A stretch of DNA of 64,000 bases from Lutimaribacter saemankumensis. GTDB taxonomy: Bacteria > Pseudomonadota > Alphaproteobacteria > Rhodobacterales > Rhodobacteraceae. The stretch lies in contig NZ_FNEB01000006.1 of NCBI RefSeq assembly GCF_900100005.1, positions 1 to 64,000 on the forward strand, written 5' to 3'. Below, piece after piece: positions 22,309 through 29,851 of this stretch (positions are counted from its first letter, which is position 1; every line of letters starts with the position of its first letter). A model generated the notes under the pieces. The model saw nothing but the letters and a program-made list of their open reading frames with translations. It was not told the origin of the DNA and did no database searches. Position numbers and translations under genes: made by a program.

Positions 22309-23982
22309 TTAACCGGCAGTCACCTTTTCGGGTTTCGCCAGCCATTCCTTGCCGCGCAGCATCGCCTTCCAATAGACCGGTGGCAGGATCTGTTCTTTCA
22401 GGATCCAGGCTGCGCGCGTGGGTTTGGTGCCGTCGATGATCCATTTCGGAAAGCTGGGCATCAGCGCGCCGCCATACCCGAACTCGGCCAGGACGATCTT
22501 GCCCTTTTCCACTGTCAGTGGACATGAGCCATAGCCGTTGTACATTGCCCGCGGGGCGCCGCCGCGAATGTCGGCAACCAGGTTTTCCGCAACGATCGGC
22601 GCCTGCATGCGCGCGGCTGCTGCGGTCTTGGCGTTGGGTGCGTTCATCACGTCGCCAAGGCTCCAGATGTTTTCGTATTCCTTGTGGCGCAGGGTGTTCT
22701 GATCGACATCCACCCAACCGGCTGCATCGGCCAGCGGTGAAACGCGGATGAAATCGGGCGCTGTCTGCGGCGGGCAGACATGCATCATGTCGAACTCGAC
22801 CGTTACATCGCGCGCGTCCTTGTCGGGTTCCGACACCCGGAAAGTGGCCTTTTTGGCTGCACCGTCGACCGCGATCAGGTTGTTCCAGAAATTCAGCGTG
22901 GCGTCATATTTCCTGACGTATTCCATAAGGGCCGGGACGTAGTCCTTGACCCCGAAAAGCACGCCGCCCGCATTCATGAACTGGACGTCGATGTCCTTCA
23001 GGCGGTTGGTGCGGAACCAGTGGTCCGCCGACAGGTACATCGCCTTTTGCGGTGCGCCTGCGCATTTGATTGGCATGGGGGGCTGGGTGAACAGCGCGCG
23101 GCCTTCGCGCAGGCCCTTGACCAGTTCCCAGGTATAGGGCGCAAGGTCATAGCGGTAGTTCGACGTGACGCCGTTCTTGCCCAGCGTTTCGACCAGCCCT
23201 TCAACCGCGTGCCAATCGAGCTTGAGCCCCGGACACACGACAAGGCGGTCGTATTTCACCACGCGGCATCCATCCAGAATGACGGCGTTGTCCTTCGGTT
23301 CGAACGCGGCAACGGCCGATTTGATCCAGTGAACGCCGTTGGGGATCAGGCTGCCCATGGTCCGCGCCGTCGTTTTCGCGTCGAAGACGCCCGCGCCGAC
23401 CATCGTCCAGCCGGGTTGGTAATAGTGGATGTCGGCCGGGTCGAGGATTGCGATGCTCAGCCCCGGTTTGCGTTCCTTGATGCTGGCGGCAACGGCGATG
23501 CCTGCCGCCCCGCCGCCCACGATCACAACGTCGAATTTCGCGTCGCCCGTATCCGTGGGCGTCTTGCCGCCATTCACGATGCGCCGCACTACGCCGGCCA
23601 TGTCGTATCCCGCGGCCTTCGTCGCAGCGAGGATCGCCGCAGGCTCGCGATGCTTGGCCTGCGACAGCGACCACAGCGTGGCCGAGCGCGTGCCTGTCCG
23701 GCAATAGGCAAGCACCGGACCGGGCAGTTCGATCAGCGCGCGGCCGAAATCCTCGGCGTCCTCGTCGCGGACCTTGCCGGAAACGATCGGCAGGAACCGT
23801 GTCTGCAGGCCCGCGGCCTTTGCGGCCGCCTCGACCTCTTCAAAGGTGGGCTGGTCGGCGGCCTCGCCGTCGGGACGGTTGCAGATGATCGCGCGGAACC
23901 CCTGGGCCGCGACCTCGGCCATCTCTTCGGGCAAAAGCTGGGGCGCGACGCTGACTTCGTCGGTGATCTTCTTGATATCCAT
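22309..23982 (-). CDS. DUF442 (BLH-type) - sulfide:quinone oxidoreductase fusion
   Basis: The protein has 557 residues. Residues 1-110 are a DUF442/TIGR01244 domain with an active Cys loop CRTGTR (94-99), like rhodaneses and phosphatases. From about 150 an FAD-binding oxidoreductase begins (VVIVGGGAAGIA). Two cysteines of type II SQR are kept: Cys307 in MPIKCAGAPQKAMYL and Cys487 in GYGSCPLTV. It should oxidise sulfide to a persulfide and pass electrons to quinone. The N-terminal domain probably handles the sulfane sulfur. It lies 84 bp downstream of the bd-oxidase genes on the same strand. Confidence 0.88.
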   Translation of the reverse strand: MDIKKITDEVSVAPQLLPEEMAEVAAQGFRAIICNRPDGEAADQPTFEEVEAAAKAAGLQTRFLPIVSGKVRDEDAEDFGRALIELPGPVLAYCRTGTRSATLWSLSQAKHREPAAILAATKAAGYDMAGVVRRIVNGGKTPTDTGDAKFDVVIVGGGAAGIAVAASIKERKPGLSIAILDPADIHYYQPGWTMVGAGVFDAKTTARTMGSLIPNGVHWIKSAVAAFEPKDNAVILDGCRVVKYDRLVVCPGLKLDWHAVEGLVETLGKNGVTSNYRYDLAPYTWELVKGLREGRALFTQPPMPIKCAGAPQKAMYLSADHWFRTNRLKDIDVQFMNAGGVLFGVKDYVPALMEYVRKYDATLNFWNNLIAVDGAAKKATFRVSEPDKDARDVTVEFDMMHVCPPQTAPDFIRVSPLADAAGWVDVDQNTLRHKEYENIWSLGDVMNAPNAKTAAAARMQAPIVAENLVADIRGGAPRAMYNGYGSCPLTVEKGKIVLAEFGYGGALMPSFPKWIIDGTKPTRAAWILKEQILPPVYWKAMLRGKEWLAKPEKVTAG

Positions 23983-24066
23983 TCTTGCCTCCGCACGGCT
24001 GGGAATCGTTGTGAGGCTTTTTACATTCCATCTGCCGAATGCGTCAGGTGCCACACTGTCACAGCG

Positions 24067-25077
24067 TCAGTCGTAGCTGAGCGTCACCGCCTTGCCCCGG
24101 AACACGGTGTAGGCCAGCACAGTGTACCCCAGAATCATGGGCAGGACGAAAACCGTTCCGATCAGGATGATGAACAGGCTCTCGGGGGCGCTGGCGGCCT
24201 CGTAGATCGTCAACTGTTCGGGCACGACATAGGGGTAGAAACTGTAGGCCATGCCGAAGAACCCCAGCACGAACAGCGACACCGCGGCCACGAAAGGCAC
24301 CCAGGCAAAGCTGTCGTCCCGCGTGGGCAGCCGACGCAGCACGGCCCACAAGACCGCGATCAAAGCGACCGAAAACAGCGGCAGGGGCGCAAGCAGGAAA
24401 ATCTCGGGCACCGAAAACCACTTTTCGAAGATCCGGGGGCTGACCAGCGGCGAGGCAAGCGACACCGCCCCCAACCCCAGTATCACGCCGAAAATACCGC
24501 CCCGCGCCCATCGCACGGCCTTGGCCTGCAGCAGGTCTTCGGTTTTCAGGATCAGCCAGGCCGCCCCGATAAAGCTGTAGGCGACCGTCAGGAAAACCGC
24601 CGTCAACGCGCCGAAACCAACGGTCATCGGCGTGATCTGCAGCCCCATGATGTAGATGCCCAGCATGTAGCCCTGCGCCAGCGCGGTCATCAGCGAACCG
24701 GCGAAAAACGCGCGGTTCCACGGCTTTTTCCAGCGGGTCGGCGCCTTGACGCGAAATTCGAAGGCCACGCCGCGCAGGATCAGGCCGATCAGCATCACCG
24801 ACACAGGCAGATAGAGCGCGGTCAGGATCGTCCCATGGGCAACGGGAAATGCGACCAGCAACAGCCCGATCGCCAAGACAAGCCAGGTTTCATTCGCGTC
24901 CCAGAACGGGCCGATACTGGCGATCATGCGATCTTTTTCCGCATCTTCGGCAAGCGGAAACAACACCCCGACACCCAGGTCGAACCCGTCGAGAACGACA
25001 TAGATCAGGATGGACAGGCCCATAAGGGTTGCGAAGGTCAGCGGCAGCCAGGTTGCGGGGTCTCCGAAAAGGGTCAT
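24067..25077 (-). CDS. cioB: Cytochrome bd (cyanide-insensitive type) quinol oxidase subunit II
   Basis: The protein has 336 residues with about eight to nine helices. The N-terminal ILIYVVLDGFDLGVGVLFPL and DANETWLVLAIG segments are strongly conserved in CydB/CioB. It is the structural partner of subunit I and shapes the oxygen path. ATG 25077 lies 4 bp downstream of the subunit I stop, an operon arrangement. The Cio name is preferred because of the short subunit I. Confidence 0.93.
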   Translation of the reverse strand: MTLFGDPATWLPLTFATLMGLSILIYVVLDGFDLGVGVLFPLAEDAEKDRMIASIGPFWDANETWLVLAIGLLLVAFPVAHGTILTALYLPVSVMLIGLILRGVAFEFRVKAPTRWKKPWNRAFFAGSLMTALAQGYMLGIYIMGLQITPMTVGFGALTAVFLTVAYSFIGAAWLILKTEDLLQAKAVRWARGGIFGVILGLGAVSLASPLVSPRIFEKWFSVPEIFLLAPLPLFSVALIAVLWAVLRRLPTRDDSFAWVPFVAAVSLFVLGFFGMAYSFYPYVVPEQLTIYEAASAPESLFIILIGTVFVLPMILGYTVLAYTVFRGKAVTLSYD

Positions 25078-25081
25078 GGGG

Positions 25082-26467
25082 TCACTCCGCCGGGGTTTCG
25101 ATTGCGATGGCTTCGCCCGATTGCGGGATGTGGGCTTCGGGCGGCTCTCCCTTGGCTGCCCTGCGCGCGAGGTAGAACAGCACACCGACATAGGCGGCCA
25201 GCAGCGCGGCATAGACCGCAAGGTAGGCGCCGAGCGATGTCGCGACCATCGGTGCGGGCACGTCGGCCACGGCGGCCTCGGTCGTCAGCACGCCCTGCAC
25301 CAGCCACGGCTGGCGACCGATCTCGGTCGTGTACCAGCCCGCCAGCGTTGCGACCCAGCCGGAAAAGGCCATCGGAACCATTGCCAGCAATAGGGGTTTC
25401 GGCAGGCCGTCCACCCCGCCGCGCCGCCACATCAGTGCGACAGCCGCCCAGCTAAGCAGAAGCATCGCCATGCCGGTGCCAACCATGATGCGGAAACTGA
25501 AGAAAACCGGAGCAACCGGCGGGTGCGTGACGGTGCCATCCGCGGCCACGAAATCGTTCAGGCCGGGGACGACGCCATCGGCATGGTGCTTGAGGATGAG
25601 CGACGCGCCGTTGGGGATACCGATTTCCAAGCGGTTCTCGCGCGCTGCTTCGTCGGGGATTGCGAACAGCAGCAACGGGACGTTGCCGCGGGTGTCCCAG
25701 TTGCCTTCCATCGCGGCCACCTTTTGCGGCTGGTGTTCCAGCGTGTTCAGCCCGTGCATGTCGCCGGCCAGAATCTGCACGGGGATAAGCACCGCGCCCA
25801 TCATGATACCGGTGCGCAGCGTGCGGCGTATGCCGGCCGTCCTGTCGCCAAGAAGCGAGCGGAACGCGCTGATCCCGGCGATAAGGAAGGCGACGGTCAG
25901 CCCGCTGGCCAGCAGCATGTGAGCCAGCCTGTAGGGCATCGAGGGGTTGAAGATGATGGCCATCCAGTCGGTCGCATGGGCAACGCCGTCGCGCATCTCG
26001 AAGCCGGCAGGCGTGTGCATCCAGCTGTTCAGGACGAGAATCCAGAAGGCCGACATCGTCGTTCCGAATGCCACGAGAAAGGTCGAAAGCGTATGCAGCC
26101 ATCCGGGCACGCGCGACATGCCGAACAGCATGATGCCCAGGAACACCGCTTCGAGGAAGAATGCCGTCAGAACCTCGTAGGCCAGCAGAGGCCCGGCGAT
26201 GTTGCCGACCGTTTCCATGAATCCGGGCCAGTTGGTGCCGAACTGGAACGACATCGTGATGCCCGAAACAACACCCATCGCAAAGCTGAGCGCGAAAACC
26301 TTGACCCAGAACCGATAGGCTTCAAGCCAGGCTTCGTCGCCCGTGCGGTTGAAGCGCAGACGGAAAAACAGCAGCACCCAACCCAACGCGATGGTGATGG
26401 TCGGGAAAAGGATGTGAAACGATATGTTCGCGCCAAACTGAATACGCGACAAAAGCAGTGCGTCCAT
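25082..26467 (-). CDS. cioA: Cytochrome bd (cyanide-insensitive type) quinol oxidase subunit I
   Basis: The protein has 461 residues. His18 (ISFHILFP) is the axial ligand expected for haem b595, YRLAHMLLASG holds a further haem ligand, and GRQPW is the bd signature near the C-terminus. The Q-loop is short, as in cyanide-insensitive CioA proteins rather than the longer E. coli-type CydA. It oxidises quinol and reduces oxygen without a haem-copper centre. ATG 26467 has GGAGG 5 bases upstream. An upstream in-frame start is rejected for lack of a ribosome site. Confidence 0.93.
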   Translation of the reverse strand: MDALLLSRIQFGANISFHILFPTITIALGWVLLFFRLRFNRTGDEAWLEAYRFWVKVFALSFAMGVVSGITMSFQFGTNWPGFMETVGNIAGPLLAYEVLTAFFLEAVFLGIMLFGMSRVPGWLHTLSTFLVAFGTTMSAFWILVLNSWMHTPAGFEMRDGVAHATDWMAIIFNPSMPYRLAHMLLASGLTVAFLIAGISAFRSLLGDRTAGIRRTLRTGIMMGAVLIPVQILAGDMHGLNTLEHQPQKVAAMEGNWDTRGNVPLLLFAIPDEAARENRLEIGIPNGASLILKHHADGVVPGLNDFVAADGTVTHPPVAPVFFSFRIMVGTGMAMLLLSWAAVALMWRRGGVDGLPKPLLLAMVPMAFSGWVATLAGWYTTEIGRQPWLVQGVLTTEAAVADVPAPMVATSLGAYLAVYAALLAAYVGVLFYLARRAAKGEPPEAHIPQSGEAIAIETPAE

Positions 26468-26581
26468 CAAACCCTCCGTTTCTGACGCATAAGATAGTTT
26501 TGCCATGCAGGTTTTAACCGGGCTGCGACGGCAGGGCGCAGATGCCCTTTTCTTGGGCGGTCCGGCGCGCTATGCGGGGGC

Positions 26582-27643
26582 ATGACGCGTATTCAGGACA
26601 GATATGCCGAACTTGTGCAGGCGGGCGAGCTTCATGCCGATCCCGCGCAAGAGGCCGCGCTGCCTGAATTCGAACGCATCCACCACGCGTTGGAACAGCC
26701 CGTGAAGCGCGGCTGGTTCGCGAAAAAGCCCGAGCCGCCCAAGGGCTTGTATCTGTGGGGGGGCGTCGGCCGCGGCAAATCCATGCTGATGGACCTGTTT
26801 GTCAGCATGGTGAATGCCCCCAAGCGGCGCGTTCATTTCCACGCCTTCATGCAGGAAATCCAGAACGCCCTGCACGAGGCGCGCAAATCCAATGTGGAGG
26901 ACGCGATCGAGCCGGTGGCCAAGGCCGTGTCGGACGAGGTGCGGCTTTTGGCCTTTGACGAGATGCAGATCACCGATATCGCGGATGCGATGATCGTGGG
27001 GCGGCTTTTCGAAAAGCTGTTCGATGCCGGGGTGGTGGTGGTGACAACGTCGAACCGCATTCCCGACGATCTCTACAAGAACGGGTTGAACCGCCAGATA
27101 TTCCTGCCGTTCATCGACCTTCTGAAGGATCAGATGGAAATCCACGAACTGACCAGCCCGCGCGATTACCGGCAGGACAGGTTGCAGGGCGAAAAGGTCT
27201 ATTTCACCCCTGCGAATGCCGATGCGCGGCGGGCCATCGCGTCGATCTGGGACGACCTGACCGATGGCGGGGAAGAGGCGCTGGTTCTTGTGGTGAAGGG
27301 GCGCAAGGTCGAAATCCCACTCTATCACAACGGGGTTGCGCGGGCGTCGTTTCATGACCTGTGCGGCCGGATGCTGGGCGCGGCGGATTACCTTGCCCTG
27401 GCCGAAGTGACGCGGGTTCTGATCCTTGAGAACATCCCGACGCTCGGGCGGTCGAACTTCAACGAAGCCAAGCGGTTCGTGACGCTGATCGACGCGCTAT
27501 ACGAAGCCAAGGTGCGGCTGATCTGTTCGGCGGCGGCTGAGCCGGAAATGCTCTATCTCGAAGGCGAAGGGGTTTTCGAATTCGAACGCACCGCCAGCCG
27601 GCTGCGCGAAATGCAGGCCGAGGACTGGGGTGGCAATCCATGA
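26582..27643 (+). CDS. zapE: ZapE/AFG1-family cell-division ATPase
   Basis: The protein has 353 residues. The Walker A motif is GGVGRGKS (60-67) and Walker B is LLAFDEMQ near residue 120. An Asn/Arg sensor follows (VVTTSNRIPDDLYKNGLNRQ). AFG1/ZapE proteins act at the Z-ring under stress and low oxygen in bacteria, and in mitochondrial protein quality control. The gene diverges from the bd oxidase genes and ends 28 bp before a double hairpin. Confidence 0.92.
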   Translation: MTRIQDRYAELVQAGELHADPAQEAALPEFERIHHALEQPVKRGWFAKKPEPPKGLYLWGGVGRGKSMLMDLFVSMVNAPKRRVHFHAFMQEIQNALHEARKSNVEDAIEPVAKAVSDEVRLLAFDEMQITDIADAMIVGRLFEKLFDAGVVVVTTSNRIPDDLYKNGLNRQIFLPFIDLLKDQMEIHELTSPRDYRQDRLQGEKVYFTPANADARRAIASIWDDLTDGGEEALVLVVKGRKVEIPLYHNGVARASFHDLCGRMLGAADYLALAEVTRVLILENIPTLGRSNFNEAKRFVTLIDALYEAKVRLICSAAAEPEMLYLEGEGVFEFERTASRLREMQAEDWGGNP

Positions 27644-27670
27644 GTTCGGACCGGGGTGATTGAACCGCCG

Positions 27671-27708
27671 AAAACCGCGCGGTTTTGCGCCGATACCGCG
27701 CGGTTTTT
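27671..27708 (+). terminator. Terminator built from two copies of a palindrome
   Basis: AAAACCGCGCGG (27671-27682) pairs with CCGCGCGGTTTT (27696-27707), giving a 12-bp stem followed by T residues. Each arm also lies in a self-complementary block (AAAACCGCGCGGTTTT), so the RNA could fold as one long hairpin or two short ones. Confidence 0.8.
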
Positions 27709-27764
27709 CTGTCGACCTGTGCTGAACGTGCTAATCCGCCATCAGTGAGGATCGGGAGGTCAGT

Positions 27765-28241
27765 ATGGACAGACGTTTCTTTGTCTTGGGATGTGTGGCA
27801 CTTGCAGGGTGTGGCCGCCCGGAACGGCGCCGCGAAAGGATGCGGGCCGGCCAGCCGCGCTATAACGCGCCGCTTTATCCAAACGAAACGCCACAGTTGC
27901 GTGCATTGATCGTCAAGTATGCGAACTTTTACGACGTACCGGTCGAACTGGTGCAGCGGGTGATCGTGCGCGAAAGCCGGCATCGTCCCCAAGCGCGCAA
28001 TGGTCCCTATTACGGGTTGATGCAGATCCTCCCTCAAACGGCCCGCACAATGGGATTTCGTGGTGCCCCCGAGGATTTGCTGGATGCGGAAACCAACCTG
28101 AAATACGCGGTCAAATACCTGCGTGGCGCGTGGCTGGTATCGGATGGCGACCAGGATCGCGCGGTGATGTGGTATGCCCGTGGCTACTACTACGAAGCCA
28201 AGCGGCGGGGAATGCTGCGCGAGACAGGTCTGCGGAGCTGA
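27765..28241 (+). CDS. Lytic transglycosylase (SLT family), lipoprotein
   Basis: The protein has 158 residues. The N-terminus MDRRFFVLGCVALAGC has a lipobox with Cys16 and twin arginines, so it may be a Tat-exported lipoprotein. Residues about 50-140 are the SLT fold: catalytic Glu70 in VIVRESRH, GLMQILPQTARTMGF, and LKYAVKYLRG. It cleaves the glycan strands of murein to anhydromuropeptides. GGGAGGTCAGT precedes the ATG. The protein is short, essentially only the catalytic domain. Confidence 0.9.
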   Translation: MDRRFFVLGCVALAGCGRPERRRERMRAGQPRYNAPLYPNETPQLRALIVKYANFYDVPVELVQRVIVRESRHRPQARNGPYYGLMQILPQTARTMGFRGAPEDLLDAETNLKYAVKYLRGAWLVSDGDQDRAVMWYARGYYYEAKRRGMLRETGLRS

Positions 28242-28246
28242 TCGTC

Positions 28247-28446
28247 AAAAAGAAAGGGGGCCGTTGGTTCGGCCCCTCTTTCCCACCTGCCGTCGAAAGC
28301 TGTCAGAACTGTGAAGGGGTGCGCCGGGCGCGACACGGCCTTGCCGTCGTCTGCGTCACAGCATCACTTTCAGACCTTTGCCGCATGTTCGAAGTTCCCC
28401 AAAATGGCTGCCGTTCGATAACCGGCTGAACGGCGGCCCACGCCCC
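28247..28446 (-). ncRNA. Candidate structured small RNA between slt-like gene and folC
   Basis: On the minus strand a promoter-like pair is followed six bases later by GGGGCG at 28446. The ends of a 131-nt core can pair: GGGGCG (28446-28441) plus GGGC (28439-28436) with GCCC (28329-28326) plus CACCCC (28321-28316). Inside lie three stems: GCCGTTC/GAACGGC (28434-28410), GTCTG/CAGAC (28375-28349) and ACGGC-AAG-GCCGT (28347-28335). A hairpin with a T-rich tail ends near 28247. The gap has no credible gene. It does not match SRP RNA (no GGAAGG loop) or any riboswitch I know. Alternatively it is a folC 3' untranslated region. Confidence 0.4.
28251..28283. terminator. Bidirectional rho-independent terminator
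   Basis: GGGGCCG (28257-28263) and CGGCCCC (28270-28276) form a stem with a 6-nt loop. On the plus strand CTCTTTC follows, serving the transglycosylase gene. On the minus strand CTTTCTTTTTG follows, a better U-tail, which would end a leftward transcript. Confidence 0.75.
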
Positions 28447-28452
28447 TGCCAA

Positions 28453-28482
28453 GATATAGGCGAGCCGCTGCGAATCGGTCAA
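28453..28482 (-). promoter_or_regulatory. Candidate sigma-70 promoter for the small RNA
   Basis: Read on the minus strand, TTGACC (28482-28477) and TATATC (28458-28453) are 18 bp apart and six bases before a G-rich start. The -35 matches five of six consensus positions and the -10 matches four. Confidence 0.4.
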
Positions 28483-28573
28483 TATCGTGTGGCTTCTCGG
28501 CACCGGTGCAGAAAGTGAAGGGGTTGAATTGACTCGAAACTTTTTTCCGCTGGGCTGACGGTCTCGACGCTTT

Positions 28574-29851
28574 CTATTGATTGGCACCAAGGCGCAAGAC
28601 GGCGCCTGCCAGATAGAGAGACCCGCAAATCAGAATGCGCGCTTGCGGTGTATGGGCGTCGATACGGGAAAGGGCCTCTTTCACACCCGGTGCCTTTTCG
28701 GCGCGCAGGCCCACTTGCGTGGCGGCTTCGGCGGTTTGTTCAGCGGTCAGGGTATTCGCCTCGCCCGGGATCGAAACCGCCAGCAAGCCATCGGCAACCT
28801 GCGCCAGAGGTGCAAGATAGCCGGTGACATCCTTCGTGTTCAGCATTCCGCAGATCAGGTATGTCGGCCGTTCCGGCAGCGTTCCGAGATGCGCGGCGAG
28901 GGCTTGCCCCGCTGCAGGATTGTGCCCGCCATCTAGCCAGAGTTCGGCCTTCGGTGCCAAGGCGGGCAGGGGGCCTCCGGTCAGTCGTTGCATGCGCGCG
29001 GGCCAGAACGCGTTGGTCACCGCTGCTTCGGCGGCCATGTCGTCAAAGCCCAGAAACCTGAGCGCGGCAATCGCGGCACCGGCATTCTGGACCTGGTGCG
29101 CGCCAGGCAGGTTGGGCAGCGGCAGGTCGAGCAGGCCGACGTCGTCCTGGAAAAACATCCGCCCGTGTTCCAGCCCCACATGCCAGTGCTGGCCATATGC
29201 AAGAACGGGGGCGCCAAGCCTTTCGGCCCGGGCCTCGATCACCTCCAGGGCCGCGTCTTCCTGCGGGCCTACGACCACGGGCACACCCGGTTTGATGATG
29301 CCTGCCTTTTCGCCTGCGATCTTGGCCAACGTGTCGCCCAGATAGCTTTCGTGGTCCATGGACACGGGCGTGATTATCGTAAGCTCGGGTTTGTCGATCA
29401 CGTTCGTTGCGTCCAGCCGCCCACCCAGGCCGACTTCGAGAAGGGTGTAGTCTGCCGGTGTTCGTGCCATCGCAAGGATCGCCGCGCAGGTCGTGATTTC
29501 GAAATAGGTGATCGGCGTGTCGCCGTTCGCGGCGTAGCATTCGTCCAGAACATCCGACAACGCGGTTTCGGAGATAAGTTCGCCGGCAATGCGTATGCGT
29601 TCATGAAACCGCGCAAGGTGCGGTGACGTGTAGGCGTGCACGCGTTTGCCTGCGCTTTCAAGGCCGGCCCGGATCATGGCCTGTGTGCTGCCCTTGCCGT
29701 TGGTTCCGGCGATATGGATCACCGGCGGCAGATCGTTCTGCGGGTTGCCGAGCGCGTCCAGCAGTTGCCAGACCCGGTCAAGCGTCAGGTCGATGATCTT
29801 GGGGTGCAGCGCCATCATCCGTTCAAGGATGGCGTCGGATCGCTGTGTCAT
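28574..29851 (-). CDS. folC: Bifunctional folylpolyglutamate/dihydrofolate synthase
   Basis: The protein has 425 residues. The ATP loop is GTNGKGS (49-55). Other family marks are YTSPHLARFHERIRI, LLEVGLGGRLDATNVI (the Mg site) and LDGGHNPAAG near residue 310. It adds glutamate to dihydropteroate and to folates in the cytoplasm. It is in the same orientation as accD and a small YdhR-like gene, the common alphaproteobacterial accD-folC pairing. Confidence 0.95.
   Translation of the reverse strand: MTQRSDAILERMMALHPKIIDLTLDRVWQLLDALGNPQNDLPPVIHIAGTNGKGSTQAMIRAGLESAGKRVHAYTSPHLARFHERIRIAGELISETALSDVLDECYAANGDTPITYFEITTCAAILAMARTPADYTLLEVGLGGRLDATNVIDKPELTIITPVSMDHESYLGDTLAKIAGEKAGIIKPGVPVVVGPQEDAALEVIEARAERLGAPVLAYGQHWHVGLEHGRMFFQDDVGLLDLPLPNLPGAHQVQNAGAAIAALRFLGFDDMAAEAAVTNAFWPARMQRLTGGPLPALAPKAELWLDGGHNPAAGQALAAHLGTLPERPTYLICGMLNTKDVTGYLAPLAQVADGLLAVSIPGEANTLTAEQTAEAATQVGLRAEKAPGVKEALSRIDAHTPQARILICGSLYLAGAVLRLGANQ

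Follow-up and report, generated by a model that had tools for sequence, protein, structure and literature searches.

A small RNA gene of its own probably occupies the minus strand downstream of folC in Lutimaribacter saemankumensis, at positions 28482-28247 of the window (the whole 64-kb stretch of DNA that was analysed, from a genome of 3.77 Mb). As read from the sequence, it would have its own promoter and terminator and give a predicted transcript of about 200 nucleotides (Table 1). This reading is the most likely one because the promoter and the 3' tail are kept and the body between them is not; it is conservation, not folding, that raises the feature above chance. A putative promoter and a putative rho-independent terminator of its own lie together in the gap, the arrangement that defines an intrinsically terminated small RNA gene. 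The working part is probably the 3' module, GGCAGG with the terminator: GGCAGG would act in trans, by base-pairing or as a protein-binding site, and the body would be mostly spacer. The locus recurs across the Rhodobacteraceae, yet no Rfam family covers it. If the transcript is real, these bacteria offer a natural series, running from a gene through a gene with a conserved tail to the RNA alone and finally to nothing, in which one can ask how messenger RNAs become small RNAs and if methylation of the DNA sets the timing of such an RNA.

Table 1. Features of the folC-downstream gap and its flanking genes, in window positions
Feature	Position	Strand	Basis or remark
SLT-domain gene	27765..28241	+	convergent neighbour; ORF and Pfam
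Intrinsic terminator (putative)	28247..28276	-	hairpin 28276-28257 and T-rich tail
Predicted transcript, about 200 nt	28247..28446	-	from promoter and terminator; start from spacing
GGCAGG motif	28286..28291	-	just upstream of terminator
Variable body	28292..28446	-	no conserved structure in genus; not alignable with relatives
Promoter (putative)	28453..28482	-	-35 TTGACC 28482-28477, 18-nt spacer, -10 TATATC 28458-28453
GATTC (GANTC site)	28472..28476	-	directly after -35; sequence
folC	28574..29851	-	same-strand upstream neighbour; ORF and Pfam Mur ligase domains

The gap (28242-28573) lies between two convergent genes, the SLT-domain gene, which is preceded by an AFG1-type ATPase gene (+), and folC, which has an accD-like gene upstream; the names folC and accD are family-based assignments. 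The FolC of the window is closest to that of Lutimaribacter (85% to the L. pacificus FolC).

The -35/-10 pair, the GGGG and the T-tailed hairpin proposed in the sequence-only reading have held up. TTGACC and TATATC belong to a promoter that is kept in relatives, GGGG begins on the minus strand at 28446, downstream of TATATC, and the hairpin GGGGCCGAACCAACGGCCCC is followed by the tail CTTTCTTTTT (28276-28247, minus strand). Three islands align with L. pacificus: the promoter stretch 28482-28446 (86% identical), the terminator region 28295-28248 (97.9%) and, upstream of the promoter, a 21-nt island at 28543-28523 (95%) with a further GANTC site (GAGTC, 28531). The pattern TTGAC-N18..20-TATA occurs once in the 64 kb (both strands scanned), at the 28482 promoter, and TTGACYGATTCN{11,15}TATA has one match in the whole genome. 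A generic promoter scan gave no sigma-70 sites at its threshold, and a terminator scan gave two terminator-like sites versus 2.0 in shuffles.

Across the family, 34 of 295 genomes contain TTGACYGATTCN{13}TANA, versus 6 control hits. folC lies upstream on the same strand at 21 of the 29 fetched loci other than the window's own, a count that leaves out G232 and G215; at the remaining eight a FolC match is absent from the fetched stretch. Matches in G252 and G142, outside the 29, are also at folC.

Four Lutimaribacter copies were compared: the window, L045, L046 and G002. The promoter and the GGCAGGTGG-AAAG-hairpin are kept in all four, as is GGCAGG upstream of the terminator, and the terminator stem of G002 has one compensated pair; body length and sequence differ. 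Neither the predicted internal stems of the window nor the pairing of its ends is common to L045, L046 and G002, and the body up to the terminator folds with z = +0.86, so that the three internal stems and complementary ends described earlier are not supported. For the whole 236 nt, z is -0.80, and 45 of 200 shuffles fold equally well. Of the proposed orphan structured small RNA, the comparison supports a gene of its own with conserved ends, and the earlier reading was right about the promoter-terminator unit; a structured RNA is not supported in this genome. The best perfect 5' stems in the four bodies measure 7, 5, 7 and 6 bp; 22, 272, 13 and 80 of 300 shuffles, respectively, were as good, and 5' hairpins are not claimed for these bodies. 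A search of three Lutimaribacter genomes with CCACCTGCCGTC gave 4 matches (versus 6 control hits), three being the RNA itself and the fourth another site in G001.

In a hand-picked set of 23 elements, 17 carry GGCAGG at most 30 nt ahead of the terminator, where 0.7 would be expected. L006 and L007 had entered this set through tail similarity, and L169, L170 and L188 through motif or model; without these last three the motif is in 14 of 20. A search for GGCAGG together with this type of hairpin had 15 hits, spread over 13 of 198 genomes, versus 2 control hits. Seven genomes have the tail at this locus (G000, G011, G118, G054, G112, G138 and G195) and six have it elsewhere in the genome. For the first three of the seven, folC lies in the fetched stretch; in the other four the promoter, which shares contig and strand with the tail, lies 1.6-1.7 kb upstream of it, and what precedes the tail looks by eye like the end of a LysM-like protein. 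Since tail matches fall at RNA units and after coding ends, the tail occurs both alone and as the end of a coding unit.

GANTC is the CcrM site, at which GcrA acts, and GcrA is encoded. Three of the four Lutimaribacter copies have GATTC next to the -35; L045, the nearest relative, is without it. A GANTC site is present in the promoter spacer of 22 of the 23 elements, most of which were found with patterns requiring GANTC, and in that of 10 of the 11 RNA loci recovered with the 12-nt RNA motif alone (by-eye count); 2.1% of 25-nt stretches of the window contain one. GATTC beside the -35 may couple transcription to CcrM methylation and GcrA, and by this tie the gene may be linked to the cell cycle.

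The distribution of the unit was followed at 104 unique folC loci that were not promoter-selected, a sample skewed to close FolC relatives from which three short loci were dropped. The label 'RNA' was assigned by eye to loci with a promoter-like site and no gene before the hairpin. Eighteen loci are 'RNA', 27 have rhodanese or LysM-type matches (names taken from the Pfam hits of three proteins chosen as examples) and 59 have neither; L017, L071 and L075 in the 'RNA' set also carry rhodanese genes. On a quick FolC tree the label needs 8 changes; shuffled labels need 16.8, and none of 500 shuffles gets down to 8. The label covers, among others, a four-row Lutimaribacter clade and a six-row Shimia-Thalassovita group. 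L059, titled uncultured Lutimaribacter, is placed elsewhere on the tree and has the gene. The folC-AFG1 interval (L045-L124, L017-L044) is a hot spot in which rhodanese-like and LysM-type genes come and go.

A compact version of about 100 nt is found in the Shimia-containing genus to which G252 belongs; the elements there are identical to those of the Shimia loci L063, L079 and L110. The strict promoter is present in 13 of 25 genomes of the genus, after folC in all 13; in five further genomes the RNA is also at folC and its -35 context differs, for a total of 18 of 25. The compact RNA comprises an 8-bp covarying 5' hairpin, ACAGGCAGG (outside both model helices) and a GC hairpin without a long T tail. 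The window shares with it the folC-downstream TTGAC(Y)GATTC promoter and GGCAGG before a GC hairpin; it differs in its longer variable body, in having no covarying 5' hairpin and in not matching the covariance model R1 at E up to 10 (nor does its genome, G000, at E up to 0.1). At E up to 0.1, R1 has matches in 8 of 295 genomes; for three of these E is below 1e-4, and those three matches lie at folC. Eight of the 13 rows of the genus were used for the model, and L155, L160, L162, L164 and L167 were left out and later served as held-out rows.

Over the 8 rows, four of the eight hairpin pairs change on both sides, a count reached by 17 of 500 shuffles, and covariation is 0.278 versus 0.187 (0 of 500 shuffles). 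With 22 rows, all eight pairs change (0.470 versus 0.160; 0 of 500), as they do with 13 rows outside model building (0.505 versus 0.164; 0 of 500), both alignments having been fitted to the structure and the larger one (A3) including a row, L172, that lies away from folC and may have matched by chance. When all 13 RNAs of the genus were aligned by sequence only, no 5' helix emerged. Covarying structure is seen only in the compact version of this other genus and in two further genomes, with no shared internal stems in Lutimaribacter. The CTGCCTGCCTGT motif has 42 matches in 24 of the 25 genomes of the Shimia-containing genus, versus 4 control hits; of 30 loci inspected, 11 represent the RNA itself, and among the other 19, at different places, no common target was recognised by eye.

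Several results speak against a small RNA gene: the 59 folC loci with neither RNA nor gene, a body that folds like shuffles, the absence of an R1 match in the window, a mean unpaired probability of only 0.37 for GGCAGG in the predicted window RNA, the lack of a recognised target, and the missing GATTC in L045. The main rival, which we regard as unlikely, is that the unit is a relic, namely the promoter, leader and terminator of a lost rhodanese-like or LysM gene, transcribed but idle. Consistent with this, rhodanese-like genes of other species stand behind a promoter of this type, and some such units share the tail; the TTGGGGGAC leader, found before rhodanese genes in L152, L020 and L071, persists in the L045 and G002 bodies; and the bodies show neither conservation nor folding above chance. 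A relic is harder to reconcile with a promoter and 3' module conserved across four Lutimaribacter genomes, with the co-occurrence of RNA unit and rhodanese gene at L017, L071 and L075 (the last two being near-copies), or with a compact version that covaries, and tblastn detected no convincing coding remnant in the window body (weak matches only; rhodanese best E 0.32, LysM none). It is possible, though we put it forward only tentatively, that all of these are states of one locus that switches between messenger and small RNA. Such a locus would be a rhodanese-like/LysM unit, with GATTC promoter and GGCAGG-terminator tail, in some lineages; elsewhere the coding part would be gone and promoter and tail left alone, with a selected 5' hairpin in the Shimia lineage and timing through CcrM and GcrA.

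Because folC is upstream on the same strand, the gap is also the 3' flank of folC, and the only minus-strand terminator-like site in 27600-29200 is the one discussed here; both points would suit a long 3' untranslated end of folC that shares this terminator, with no separate transcript. Such an arrangement is improbable given that the gap contains a genome-unique promoter pattern, which other members of the family have at this place too. In G002, moreover, the RNA unit is intact behind an inserted rhodanese-like gene and a gene of partial LysM similarity, away from folC, which supports a gene of its own. A short protein encoded in the body was suggested by a Shine-Dalgarno-like stretch and ATG (a 27-codon frame behind GGGGAA, by eye), and is very improbable, as L045, L046 and G002 have no such frame by eye; the two longer open frames across the gap have no Pfam match.

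The small RNA gene was also set against known RNAs. Rfam 15 covariance models, 6S included, gave no matches at the gathering score in the window and none in 16 related loci, the best low-score match of the region being to an archaeal-type snoRNA model (E 0.064). 6S RNA, SRP RNA and riboswitches were accordingly rejected, in agreement with the earlier view of the latter two. The only 6S match of the genome (G000:C38:222002-222158, L001; 43.3 bits versus a cut-off of 46.4) is on another contig and is a probable 6S RNA; the window unit resembles 6S RNA (RF00013) in its length near 200 nt and differs in giving no match to that model. The next gene differs between species (by eye), which makes a cis-acting leader unlikely. 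To speak of a new RNA class, as had been suggested, is too strong, because the unit is assembled from the usual components of a bacterial small RNA gene.

StsR (formerly RSs0827), one of the stand-alone stress small RNAs of Rhodobacter sphaeroides, likewise comes from this order and has a promoter of its own. It is given as 72 nt long and under RpoHI/RpoHII, compared with about 200 nt predicted for the window unit and about 100 nt for the compact version (PMC8307010). UdsC of R. sphaeroides (PMC9779115) is similar in its conserved 3' end with terminator; the GGCAGG tail here also ends protein-coding units in four genomes, and the window has no coding sequence between promoter and tail. No report of this folC-downstream RNA was met in the open-licence papers searched, and folC is absent from the main text of PMC4809877 and PMC5107571.

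Two minor observations concern neighbouring sequences. In most members of the Shimia-containing genus (L156-L167) the perfect palindrome TGATTCGAATCA, which we take to resemble an FNR-type site, overlaps the promoter spacer. In the window, cytochrome bd oxidase subunit genes lie at 24067-26506 on the minus strand, and the long plus-strand ORF that overlaps them (22780-25455) is probably spurious.
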